Assembly: GCA_007693955.1 (NCBI GenBank)
Contig: RECR01000050.1
Coordinates: 1-64,000 of the forward strand
Direction: 5' to 3'
Length of the DNA stretch: 64,000 nt
From: Gloeocapsa sp. DLM2.Bin57
GTDB lineage: Bacteria > Cyanobacteriota > Cyanobacteriia > Cyanobacteriales > Gloeocapsaceae
A model generated the notes under the pieces. The model saw only the letters and a program-made list of their open reading frames with translations, was not told the DNA's origin and did not search any database. The position numbers and the translations under genes were made by a program. Of this stretch, positions 13,811 to 21,511 are shown piece after piece. Numbering within the stretch: the stretch's first letter is position 1; the number at the start of each line of letters is the position of its first letter.

Positions 13811-15442
13811 TTACTTTGCTTTAACCGATTGACTATGAGAATAGAAAGAAGCGGATTGTTCACCAATAGCACATTCTTGGGCAAAAGTGATCAAATGATG
13901 TCCTACTAAAGCTACCTGAATTAAATTTTCTATTTGATTTAACTGGAGATGAGAACGTACCATTTTCCAGAAGGTTTGACGATAGTTACTGAAAATGCCA
14001 ATACGGATAATGAGGTTACTAATCAGCCATAGTCCTTTGATAACATCTTTTTGAGATATTTTACGAGTATCTGCAGGAATTTTAATTCTATTACTATAGG
14101 TATGCTCAATATTATAAGCATATCGTTCATAGAGAAAATCGGGCTGGTAAGCAGTAGTAATAACTTTACGCCACATTTGCAATACTTGTTCATAGGGCAG
14201 CAAAAATTCTACATTTGACTCTCGATTGGGGTCAAAATTAAGTCTTCCTTCAGCTTCTAATCTACGCCAAAGAGGAGTATTAGGTAAAGCATGGATGAGA
14301 TTAATAGTCAACATCGGTATTTGCGAAAGACGAATAAATTCCAGAAGGCGATCGGGAGTATCGAGGGTATCGGTATCTAAACCCATAATAATCCCCGATA
14401 CCACCTGCAATCCATAGCTATTGAGAGTTTTAATCGCCTCTAAGATAGACATACCCCCCATGAGATTCTGTTGTTTAGCAATAGATTTGAGGGCGTCTTG
14501 TTCTGGAGTTTCAATACCACAGAAAACAGTATGAAAGTAAGCCTCTCGCATCATTTCTAATAGTTCTTGATGCTGTGCTAAGTTAAGAGTAGCTTCACAA
14601 GCGAATCTCACAGGATAACCATTACGCTTTTGCCAATCGATTAAATAAGGTAGTAGTTTTAGCGCAGCGCGGCGATCGCCAACAAAATTATCATCGACAA
14701 AATATACCGCTTTGACATTACCTGAAGCCAAGATAGTATCTAATTCAGCGATAATTTGTTCTGGCTTTTTCAGACGGGGATTACGTCCATACAATTCAGG
14801 AATATCGCAAAATTCACAGCGATAAGGACAACCACTAGAATATTGTATATTAGCGATAAAATAATGATCTAGATTAAGCAAATGATAAGCAGGAATAGGA
14901 AACTCCTCTAGGGGAAGTCTTTCTTGAGTTTCAAAGCGAATTTGTTGAGCAGGGCGTTCCGGATAGAGATCGATATGTGCGATCATCGAATCCATAGCAT
15001 CCCCTAACTCGCCAATCTGAAGTAAATCAAAATCAGGGTAATATTCAGGACAACTAGAAACCGAAGGTCCTCCTAAAACAGTAAGTTTATCGTAGCGATG
15101 AGCGATCGCGTTAATCTGATTAATTTGAGGGCGTTGGATGTGCATTCCGCTGACAATTACTACATCAGCCCACTTATATTCAGATGATTTGACTGGTCGA
15201 ATATTCTCATCCACAAAGCGTATCCCCCACTCTTGGGGTAAATAACTAGCAGCAACTAAAATGCCTTGAGGGGGCATAAATGCTTTAACTTGCCACATCA
15301 AGGGATAGGTGTTGCTAAAAGTACCAAATGAAGGGCTATACTTAGGAAAAACACAAAGAATTTTTCGGTAGTTAATCGGCTGATAACGTGGTTTTTCAGA
15401 AGTTTGCTTAGGTTTCTTTAGATCATTCAAGTTTGCCGTCAT
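13811..15442 (-). CDS. B12-binding domain radical SAM protein with DUF4070 C-terminus
   Basis: The protein has 543 residues. The N-terminal part (about 25-160) looks like a cobalamin-binding Rossmann domain, with V-V-I-S-G-M-H and L-G-G-P-S-V-S-S. The radical SAM cluster motif C-P-Y-R-C-E-F-C (CxxxCxxC) is near residues 205-212. It is followed by a TIM-barrel core with V-Y-F-V-D-D-N-F and G-I-E-T-P. The C-terminal 130 residues resemble DUF4070. Members include hopanoid C-2 methylase HpnP and unassigned methylases, but the motifs visible here do not decide the substrate. It is divergent from the histidine kinase gene, with about 105 bases between starts. Confidence 0.88.
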   Translation of the reverse strand: MTANLNDLKKPKQTSEKPRYQPINYRKILCVFPKYSPSFGTFSNTYPLMWQVKAFMPPQGILVAASYLPQEWGIRFVDENIRPVKSSEYKWADVVIVSGMHIQRPQINQINAIAHRYDKLTVLGGPSVSSCPEYYPDFDLLQIGELGDAMDSMIAHIDLYPERPAQQIRFETQERLPLEEFPIPAYHLLNLDHYFIANIQYSSGCPYRCEFCDIPELYGRNPRLKKPEQIIAELDTILASGNVKAVYFVDDNFVGDRRAALKLLPYLIDWQKRNGYPVRFACEATLNLAQHQELLEMMREAYFHTVFCGIETPEQDALKSIAKQQNLMGGMSILEAIKTLNSYGLQVVSGIIMGLDTDTLDTPDRLLEFIRLSQIPMLTINLIHALPNTPLWRRLEAEGRLNFDPNRESNVEFLLPYEQVLQMWRKVITTAYQPDFLYERYAYNIEHTYSNRIKIPADTRKISQKDVIKGLWLISNLIIRIGIFSNYRQTFWKMVRSHLQLNQIENLIQVALVGHHLITFAQECAIGEQSASFYSHSQSVKAK

Positions 15443-19995: not shown

Positions 19996-20208
19996 TTAGA
20001 GACTGCTTAACCAAGTAATTAAACCTTCGTGGGTGATTAATTCAAAACCAATTAAGGAAATAAAGCCAATCATCGCTAGACGTCCGTTCATTTTTTCAGC
20101 GTACTTGTTGAAACCGAATTGTTGGTTAGCATCTACATACATTTTAGGCTCGAGCGCATAGTTATTTAAGCGTCCTTGTTCTTCGGTTACATAGCTACGT
20201 TGAGTCAT
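19996..20208 (-). CDS. hli: high-light-inducible protein (one-helix chlorophyll a/b-binding family)
   Basis: This is a 70-residue protein with a single membrane helix. The chlorophyll-binding motif E-K-M-N-G-R-L-A-M (ExxNxRxAM) is near residues 38-46. The N-terminus has Y-A-L-E-P-K-M-Y-V-D-A-N-Q-Q-F-G-F-N-K-Y-like sequence, also seen in other HLIPs. HLIPs bind chlorophyll and carotenoid, protect pigment-binding intermediates and accumulate under high light. The single gene is divergent from the cobW transcript. Confidence 0.95.
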   Translation of the reverse strand: MTQRSYVTEEQGRLNNYALEPKMYVDANQQFGFNKYAEKMNGRLAMIGFISLIGFELITHEGLITWLSSL

Positions 20209-20273
20209 AATAAAATTCCTGTTTAAGTTTATGTAAATAATTATAACAATATGTTAACTTTTTTTGCAACCCC

Positions 20274-20302
20274 TTGACAAAATTTTTTTGATTTGCTAAG
20301 TC
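20274..20302 (+). promoter_or_regulatory. candidate promoter of the cobW transcript
   Basis: A perfect TTGACA at 20274-20279 is followed, after 17 bases, by TAAGTC at 20297-20302, a weak -10. It lies just before the cobalamin riboswitch, so transcription would begin at about the first base of the aptamer. Confidence 0.45.
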
Positions 20303-20310
20303 TAGAGATA

Positions 20311-20433
20311 TTGGTTCTAGTGGGGAGCAGCTACTAGAAGTAAGGGGGAAAGTACGTGTGTAAATCCGTCGCTGTCCCGCAACTGTGATGAAATAAAGAA
20401 TTTCTAAGTCAGGATACCCGCCAATATAACCAA
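20311..20433 (+). promoter_or_regulatory. cobalamin (B12) riboswitch upstream of cobW
   Basis: The sequence carries the conserved cobalamin aptamer elements in order: G-G-G-G-G-A-A-A near 20344, then T-A-A-A-T-C-C-G-T-C, T-C-C-C-G-C-A-A-C-T-G-T near 20375-20390, and the B12 box A-G-T-C-A-G-G-A-T-A-C-C-C-G-C-C at 20407-20422. The closing P1 helix is visible: TTGGTT at 20311-20316 pairs with AACCAA at 20428-20433. The coding start of CobW is 38 bases downstream. Control could be at transcription or translation. No strong intrinsic terminator is seen between the aptamer and the ATG. Confidence 0.93.
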
Positions 20434-20470
20434 CACAACAAATCTGCGAGGCACAGGTTTAAGATAAATC

Positions 20471-21511
20471 ATGCACAAAATCCCTGTTACAGTGATCACA
20501 GGTTTTCTCGGGGCTGGGAAAACCACCTTGATACGTCATTTATTACAAAACAATCAAGGACGCAAAATCGCGGTTTTAGTCAATGAATTTGGCGAAGTCG
20601 GTATAGATGGAGAGTTATTGCGTTCTTGTCAAATTTGCGATACAGATAATAATATTGTGGAGTTAACTAACGGTTGTCTCTGTTGTACAGTCCAAGAAGA
20701 ATTCTATCCGACGATGCAAGAATTACTCAAAAGACGAGAGGAGATAGACTGTATCTTAATCGAGACATCTGGGTTAGCTCTACCAAAACCCTTGATACAA
20801 GCTTTTCGTTGGCAAGAAATTCGTAATGGTGCTACCGTAGATGGGGTGGTCACGGTTGTAGATGCCAAAGCGATCGCCGATGGTGATCTAGTCAGTGATT
20901 TAGAAGGTATCCAAAAAATGAGAGAAGCTGATGAGAGTCTCGAACACGAAACCCCTTTAGAGGAGTTATTTGAGGATCAGTTAGCTTGCGCGGATTTAGT
21001 CTTATTAACTAAAACAGATTTACTCGATGAATCGAGTTTAACCAAAGTAAAAGACGCTTTAGCAGAACAATTACCTAGGGGAGTAAAAGTTCTTCCCGTT
21101 GAACAAGGTATGATCTCAGCGAATCTGTTATTAGGATTTAACGCAGCGGTAGAGGATAATCTTGATAGTCGTCCTTCTCATCACGATCACGAAGATGAAC
21201 ACGAACACGATGAGGAGATTAACTCAGTACATTTAGTATTTAATCAAGAATTTGAGCCACAAATTTTGATAGCTAAATTGCAAGAGCTAGTTAAACAACA
21301 AGAAATTTATCGTATCAAGGGTTTTGTCAGTGTTCCTCATAAACCGATGCGTCTAGTTTTACAAGGGGTAGGGAATCGCTTTGATTCTTTTTACGATCGC
21401 CTATGGTTAGAGACAGAATCTCGTCTCACCCGTTTAGTTTTGATTGGGAGAAATTTAGACTCTGATTCTTTACAACAAGTTATAGCGCTACGCGCAGGTA
21501 ATAGGGAATAG
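20471..21511 (+). CDS. cobW: CobW-type GTPase / metal chaperone (COG0523)
   Basis: This 346-residue P-loop GTPase has Walker A GFLGAGKTT at residues 11-19, the family motif C-L-C-C (residues 69-72) and a His/Asp/Glu-rich metal-binding loop near residues 236-249. A C-terminal CobW_C domain follows. COG0523 proteins deliver Zn, Co or other metals to target enzymes; CobW is tied to cobalt insertion in cobalamin synthesis. The cobalamin riboswitch directly upstream favours the cobalt/B12 function over Zn-type relatives. Confidence 0.95.
   Translation: MHKIPVTVITGFLGAGKTTLIRHLLQNNQGRKIAVLVNEFGEVGIDGELLRSCQICDTDNNIVELTNGCLCCTVQEEFYPTMQELLKRREEIDCILIETSGLALPKPLIQAFRWQEIRNGATVDGVVTVVDAKAIADGDLVSDLEGIQKMREADESLEHETPLEELFEDQLACADLVLLTKTDLLDESSLTKVKDALAEQLPRGVKVLPVEQGMISANLLLGFNAAVEDNLDSRPSHHDHEDEHEHDEEINSVHLVFNQEFEPQILIAKLQELVKQQEIYRIKGFVSVPHKPMRLVLQGVGNRFDSFYDRLWLETESRLTRLVLIGRNLDSDSLQQVIALRAGNRE

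Follow-up and report, generated by a model that had tools for sequence, protein, structure and literature searches.

The stretch of DNA analyzed here, hereafter called the window, comprises 64,000 nucleotides of contig RECR01000050.1 from the cyanobacterium Gloeocapsa sp. DLM2.Bin57, whose genome assembly (3.45 Mb in 138 contigs) is estimated to be 99.95% complete. On its plus strand, a cobalamin riboswitch aptamer is directly followed by a cobW gene, and the unit is composed of the following features:

20295 to 20439, plus strand: cobalamin riboswitch aptamer, family RF00174 (cmscan, 61.4 bits; model positions 1 to 189 of 189)
20375 to 20379, plus strand: L5 pentamer UCCCG, which would be the aptamer partner in a kissing loop (read from the sequence)
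20440 to 20460, plus strand: P13-like hairpin with stem arms AAAUCUG and CAGGUUU around the loop CGAGGCA, proposed expression platform (minimum-energy fold; recurs after most cyanobacterial aptamers)
20448 to 20451, plus strand: GAGG, core resembling a Shine-Dalgarno sequence, within the loop L13 (sequence; 19 nt before the ATG)
20471 to 21511, plus strand: cobW, encoding a cobalt-branch COG0523 GTPase of 346 amino acids (open reading frame; TIGR02475; PF02492 and PF07683)

A preliminary description made from the letters alone had proposed a well-conserved cobalamin aptamer with a P1 stem that starts at 20311 and is followed by CobW after 38 bases. The covariance model bears out the aptamer over its full length (E-value of 9e-13 in a cmscan of the whole 64-kb window, with a gathering score of 31.5 bits), a whole-genome RF00174 search recovered it at the same site, and P1 is indeed paired in the predicted fold of 20300 to 20475. 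The proposed start falls inside the match, which truly begins at 20295, and the distance was a close estimate of the 31 nt that we measured between the end of the model and the ATG of cobW. Because the fold of the leader (20300 to 20475) was no better than that of shuffled sequences (z of -0.40), the evidence for the aptamer is its covariance score and not its folding energy. By these criteria of sequence, 20295 to 20439 is a full-length cobalamin riboswitch that is predicted to bind a corrinoid. The AdoCbl-II family (RF01689) was rejected as an assignment with 22.2 bits at 20331 to 20427 against a cut-off of 36.5. At a distance of 15 nt upstream of the aptamer match, the plus strand carries a perfect TTGACA hexamer (20274 to 20279), and a promoter scan of this strand found no sigma-70-type promoter pair around it. 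The 86-nt stretch from 20209 to 20294 is common to the riboswitch-cobW transcript and a divergent gene (19996 to 20208, minus strand) for a 70-amino-acid protein resembling chlorophyll a/b-binding proteins of the high-light-inducible type (PF00504, 23.2 bits; cut-off 22.3).

The protein encoded at 20471 to 21511 matched TIGR02475 (CobW) as its best family with 496.3 bits, well above the equivalog cut-off of 332.1, and carries the Pfam domains cobW (PF02492) and CobW_C (PF07683). Its translation contains the P-loop GFLGAGKTT, the CxCC motif in the form CLCC, and the His-rich stretch SHHDHEDEHEHDEE, a trait described for CobW proteins (Haas et al. 2009, PMC2770081). No earlier in-frame start of cobW exists, since a TAA closes the reading frame two codons ahead of the ATG. 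The zinc branch of COG0523 (ZigA type) was rejected for this protein with 170.2 bits against a cut-off of 600, and the other COG0523-type genes of the genome reached at most 136 bits with TIGR02475. Both the CobW-type identity and the assignment to the cobalt rather than the zinc branch that had been proposed beforehand are thus upheld, and by its sequence the product is a true CobW with a predicted role in Co(II) delivery.

Across the whole genome, RF00174 was matched only twice, by the cobW leader (61.4 bits) and by a second copy (57.1 bits) on contig C21, where it lies upstream of cbiM (TIGR00123, 279.9 bits; cut-off 184) and then a cbiN-like gene (NF002780, 114.3 bits with a cut-off of 84; TIGR01165, 103.2 bits, slightly below 104.85). 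The next frame, cut by the end of the locus, appears CbiQ-like by eye, which we take as a presumptive assignment. Since the two detected riboswitches precede cobW and cbiM-cbiN, the detected B12 regulon consists of cobalt delivery and cobalt uptake. The genome further encodes two proteins of the CobN/Mg-chelatase family (1243 and 1330 amino acids), which we take to be CobN and ChlH, respectively, as well as a MetH B12 domain and, judged in this way, a B12-using enzyme. The natural inference is one of feedback, with the cobW riboswitch probably letting B12 switch off the supply of its own cobalt. The preliminary description had also pointed to a B12-dependent radical SAM enzyme at 13811 in need of the cofactor; the Radical_SAM assignment stood, together with a DUF4070 domain, while the B12-binding domain scored 26.0 bits and thus below its gathering score of 32.1. 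B12 dependence of this enzyme is therefore no more than plausible, and its link to the cobW riboswitch is circumstantial.

We surveyed how far the pairing of riboswitch and cobW extends among cyanobacteria. In a sample of the same order, RF00174 scored above the cut-off in 38 of 40 genomes and CobW in 37 of 40, and a riboswitch was found on the same strand up to approximately 2.1 kb upstream of cobW in 18 of these 37 (coordinates matched by hand), immediately before the gene in three (the window, G035, and G029). A second sample of 77 genomes, drawn evenly across the class and sharing a few genomes with the first (including that of the window), contained 73 above-cut-off cobW genes in 72 genomes. 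At least 25 of these 73 were preceded within 3 kb by a riboswitch on their own strand, a lower bound that was counted among the matches listed under stricter filters and with the below-cut-off cobW genes of G102 and G040 excluded; from a density of about 2 riboswitches per 4.5 Mb, we estimated a chance expectation of approximately 0.05 of 73. Immediate adjacency is rare, with no more than 40 nt between riboswitch and CobW match in 3 of the 73 (the window, G104, and G042, among the matches listed). Rfam scans of the best 80 named GTDB loci, covering up to 2.5 kb upstream (less for some shorter loci), revealed an upstream riboswitch in at least 26 and one riboswitch downstream of cobW (L107), with none within 100 nt of cobW in this set.

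These counts bear on the statement of Haas et al. 2009 (PMC2770081, in its account of cobW regulation) that cyanobacterial cobW is not riboswitch-regulated. This statement does not hold generally because at least 25 of the 73 cobW genes of the class sample have a riboswitch upstream, so that it is contradicted for about a third of the sampled genes. Among the 80 GTDB loci scanned over up to 2.5 kb, none of the 20 titled Nostoc had an upstream riboswitch, which may be where the older view came from.

We inspected what comes after the riboswitch in 17 relatives from the order: cobW directly in two of them, and a single short gene or several in the others, so that upstream of cyanobacterial cobW the riboswitch mostly heads a longer operon. 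Among those intervening genes that were compared with Pfam, the products comprise DUF1636 (140 and 157 bits), HupE_UreJ (128 and 142 bits), a DUF2808 protein (154 bits), and one that is CbtB-like and slightly below the cut-off (25.7 bits; cut-off 27), with two longer genes giving no Pfam match. In G001, a genome of the same genus as the window (locus L072, contig C220), the order is riboswitch, DUF1636, cobW, and hupE lies on the other strand behind a riboswitch of its own so that the two riboswitches are divergent. Neither HupE nor a DUF1636 protein of the G001 type was found in the window genome; for the latter, the result comes from a protein query that recovered its source genome G001, as PF07845 alone was uninformative with a silent positive control. 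The simplest reading is that the window transcript would be a shortened form of a riboswitch-DUF1636/HupE-type operon. Given that DUF1636 recurs next to riboswitches, we view it as a candidate cobalt-handling protein.

The hairpin between aptamer and cobW (20440 to 20460) has a stem of 7 pairs and a minimum-energy fold of -4.3 kcal/mol that is no better than that of shuffled sequences, so that the case for it is one of conservation. We therefore compared 120 distinct cyanobacterial aptamers, left from 133 after removal of identical ones; loci L016 and L030 were dropped for their cut flanks. In this set, which is not a random one but combines cobW-linked aptamers, the top-scoring aptamers of each genome, and 60 picked by hand from 150 listed, 101 of the 120 have a GCGAGG in the next 160 nt (2 with reversed and 1 with reverse-complemented control sequences). 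An open-frame start codon follows within 45 nt in 61 of the 101 GCGAGG leaders, and GAGG ends 5 to 12 nt before most of them, a spacing as expected of a putative Shine-Dalgarno sequence. An automated hairpin rule found no hairpin in 12 of the 120 leaders and, in the window, chose a stronger hairpin within the coding region, so that 20440 to 20460 was assigned from sequence and fold. The window loop CGAGGCA is one base off the commonest form, CGAGGUA. Directly upstream of cobW, the distance from GAGG to the ATG is 9 nt in G035, 12 nt in G104, 15 nt in G029, and 19 nt in the window, and this unusually long spacing makes the use of GAGG as a Shine-Dalgarno sequence doubtful in the window itself.

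L13 could also pair with L5. The L5 pentamer is UCCCG in 109 of the 120 distinct aptamers, and together with the loop sequence CGAGG it could form four G-C pairs with the A bulged out, though the covariation among relatives is modest. Eight aptamers have variant L5 centres, and L13 differs as well in all of them: four with UGCCG have CGUCGCA (three) or CGUCCCA (one), two with UACCG both have CGAGUUA, and two with UCGCG have CGCGGAA or CGCGUAA. The third base of the L13 loop varies freely between A, C, and U alongside the standard L5. When the pairings were shuffled, 127 of 20000 shuffles reached the observed pairing score, in a test that allowed 0 to 2 bulges and ignored relatedness; under the same scoring, the UACCG loops pair with the standard L13 as well as or better than with their own. 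We regard the covariation in relatives as suggestive of an L5-L13 contact. Such kissing loops are known in corrinoid riboswitches and act on a hairpin with the ribosome-binding site in btuB and env8HyCbl (PMC10653944, as far as it treats these two). The arrangement proposed here would resemble env8HyCbl and E. coli btuB in that L5-L13 kissing governs access to the ribosome-binding site, and it differs from them in that the window has its Shine-Dalgarno-like GAGG within the L13 loop and in that the pairing proposed for it works only with one base bulged out.

Starting from the aptamer, the identity of CobW, the conserved GAGG hairpin, and the co-occurring cbiM riboswitch, we consider it likely that this is an ordinary corrinoid riboswitch which lowers cobW translation when the corrinoid cofactor suffices. 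For this RNA, we infer that ligand binding would stabilize a kissing loop between L5 (UCCCG) and L13 (CGAGGCA), and since the Shine-Dalgarno-like GAGG is part of L13, the ribosome would then have no access to this motif. When the cofactor is scarce, the L13 loop would be free and CobW would be made, which in turn would carry Co(II) to the CobN-type chelatase.

The 19-nt spacing in the window, compared with 8 nt from GAGG to the start before DUF1636 in G001, would also suit a genuine riboswitch that acts by another route, either through premature transcription end (e.g., Rho-dependent) or through decay of the mRNA; the hairpin around GAGG would then be a relic of an earlier first gene. The precedent for such a readout comes from Anabaena, where the alr4027 transcript shifts approximately 100-fold with cobalt (PMC10878165), so that a cyanobacterial response can show itself chiefly at the mRNA level. 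We nevertheless judge this route unlikely, since the hairpin has kept its 7-pair stem intact despite the presumed loss of the intervening gene and no intrinsic terminator-like site was found on the plus strand between 20200 and 20700. That the riboswitch is a decayed remnant of operon shrinkage, leaving cobW constitutive, is very improbable. In its favour, HupE and DUF1636, riboswitch-linked beside cobW in G001, were not found in the window genome, the L13 loop is off by one base, and the Shine-Dalgarno spacing is off as well, but the full-length match outscores the genome's other copy, L5 is conserved, the hairpin is intact, and a riboswitch stands directly upstream of cobW in four other genomes (G035, G029, G104, and G042).

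The translational reading of an ordinary corrinoid riboswitch has relatives among described systems. As in the riboswitch-controlled cobW of Proteobacteria (Haas et al. 2009, PMC2770081, as described there), a true CobW gene stands under a B12 riboswitch; the window differs in being from a cyanobacterium, with cobW alone after the aptamer and outside a B12 synthesis cluster. The cobalamin riboswitch of alr4027-btuB2 in Anabaena PCC 7120 is likewise cyanobacterial, responds to cobalt starvation, and precedes a first gene for a putative metal-binding protein, but it controls B12 uptake (Btu) genes and not cobW, which is absent from the main text of that report (PMC10878165). B12 elements from three metagenomes have the same targets cobW and hupE, with cobW not tied to cyanobacteria in the account of these elements (PMC2211319). 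Riboswitch-linked cobalt transporters have been described in cyanobacteria (PMC4284471 and PMC7689651, in the parts on cobalt transport), and a study of cyanobacterial regulons is without cobW in its main text (PMC3766115). Our literature search, which covered main texts and few subscription papers, found no published cyanobacterial riboswitch-cobW unit. Each part is already known, and the pairing of riboswitch and cobW had been reported absent from cyanobacteria; the present analysis adds that the 2009 statement needs correcting and that a platform with a Shine-Dalgarno-like sequence in L13 recurs. Though its mechanism is a familiar one, such control would place both the delivery and the uptake of cobalt under feedback by the cofactor in oxygenic phototrophs, which synthesize cobamides themselves, and the survey points to DUF1636 as a candidate for handling cobalt. 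At a little under an even chance, we tentatively propose a cyanobacterial cobalt-supply regulon in which cobW and the genes for HupE, CbtB-like, and DUF1636 proteins would all be under corrinoid riboswitches with a phylum-wide platform, L13 would both kiss L5 and supply the Shine-Dalgarno core, and DUF1636 would handle cobalt.

Some individual loci of the survey stood out. Tandem cobalamin riboswitches only 3 nt apart lie upstream of cobW in Prochloraceae MO_167.B51 (L104, 886 to 1072 and 1076 to 1220) and likewise in G026. In the one-contig genome G034, the cobW match (C1, 3112696 to 3113716) is split over two overlapping frames of 281 and 155 amino acids, which suggests a frameshift. A locus titled Chloroflexaceae bacterium (L160, JAAUTE010000026.1) contains a riboswitch-cobW arrangement of the cyanobacterial type at 70% identity and may be mislabelled or come from a mixed bin.
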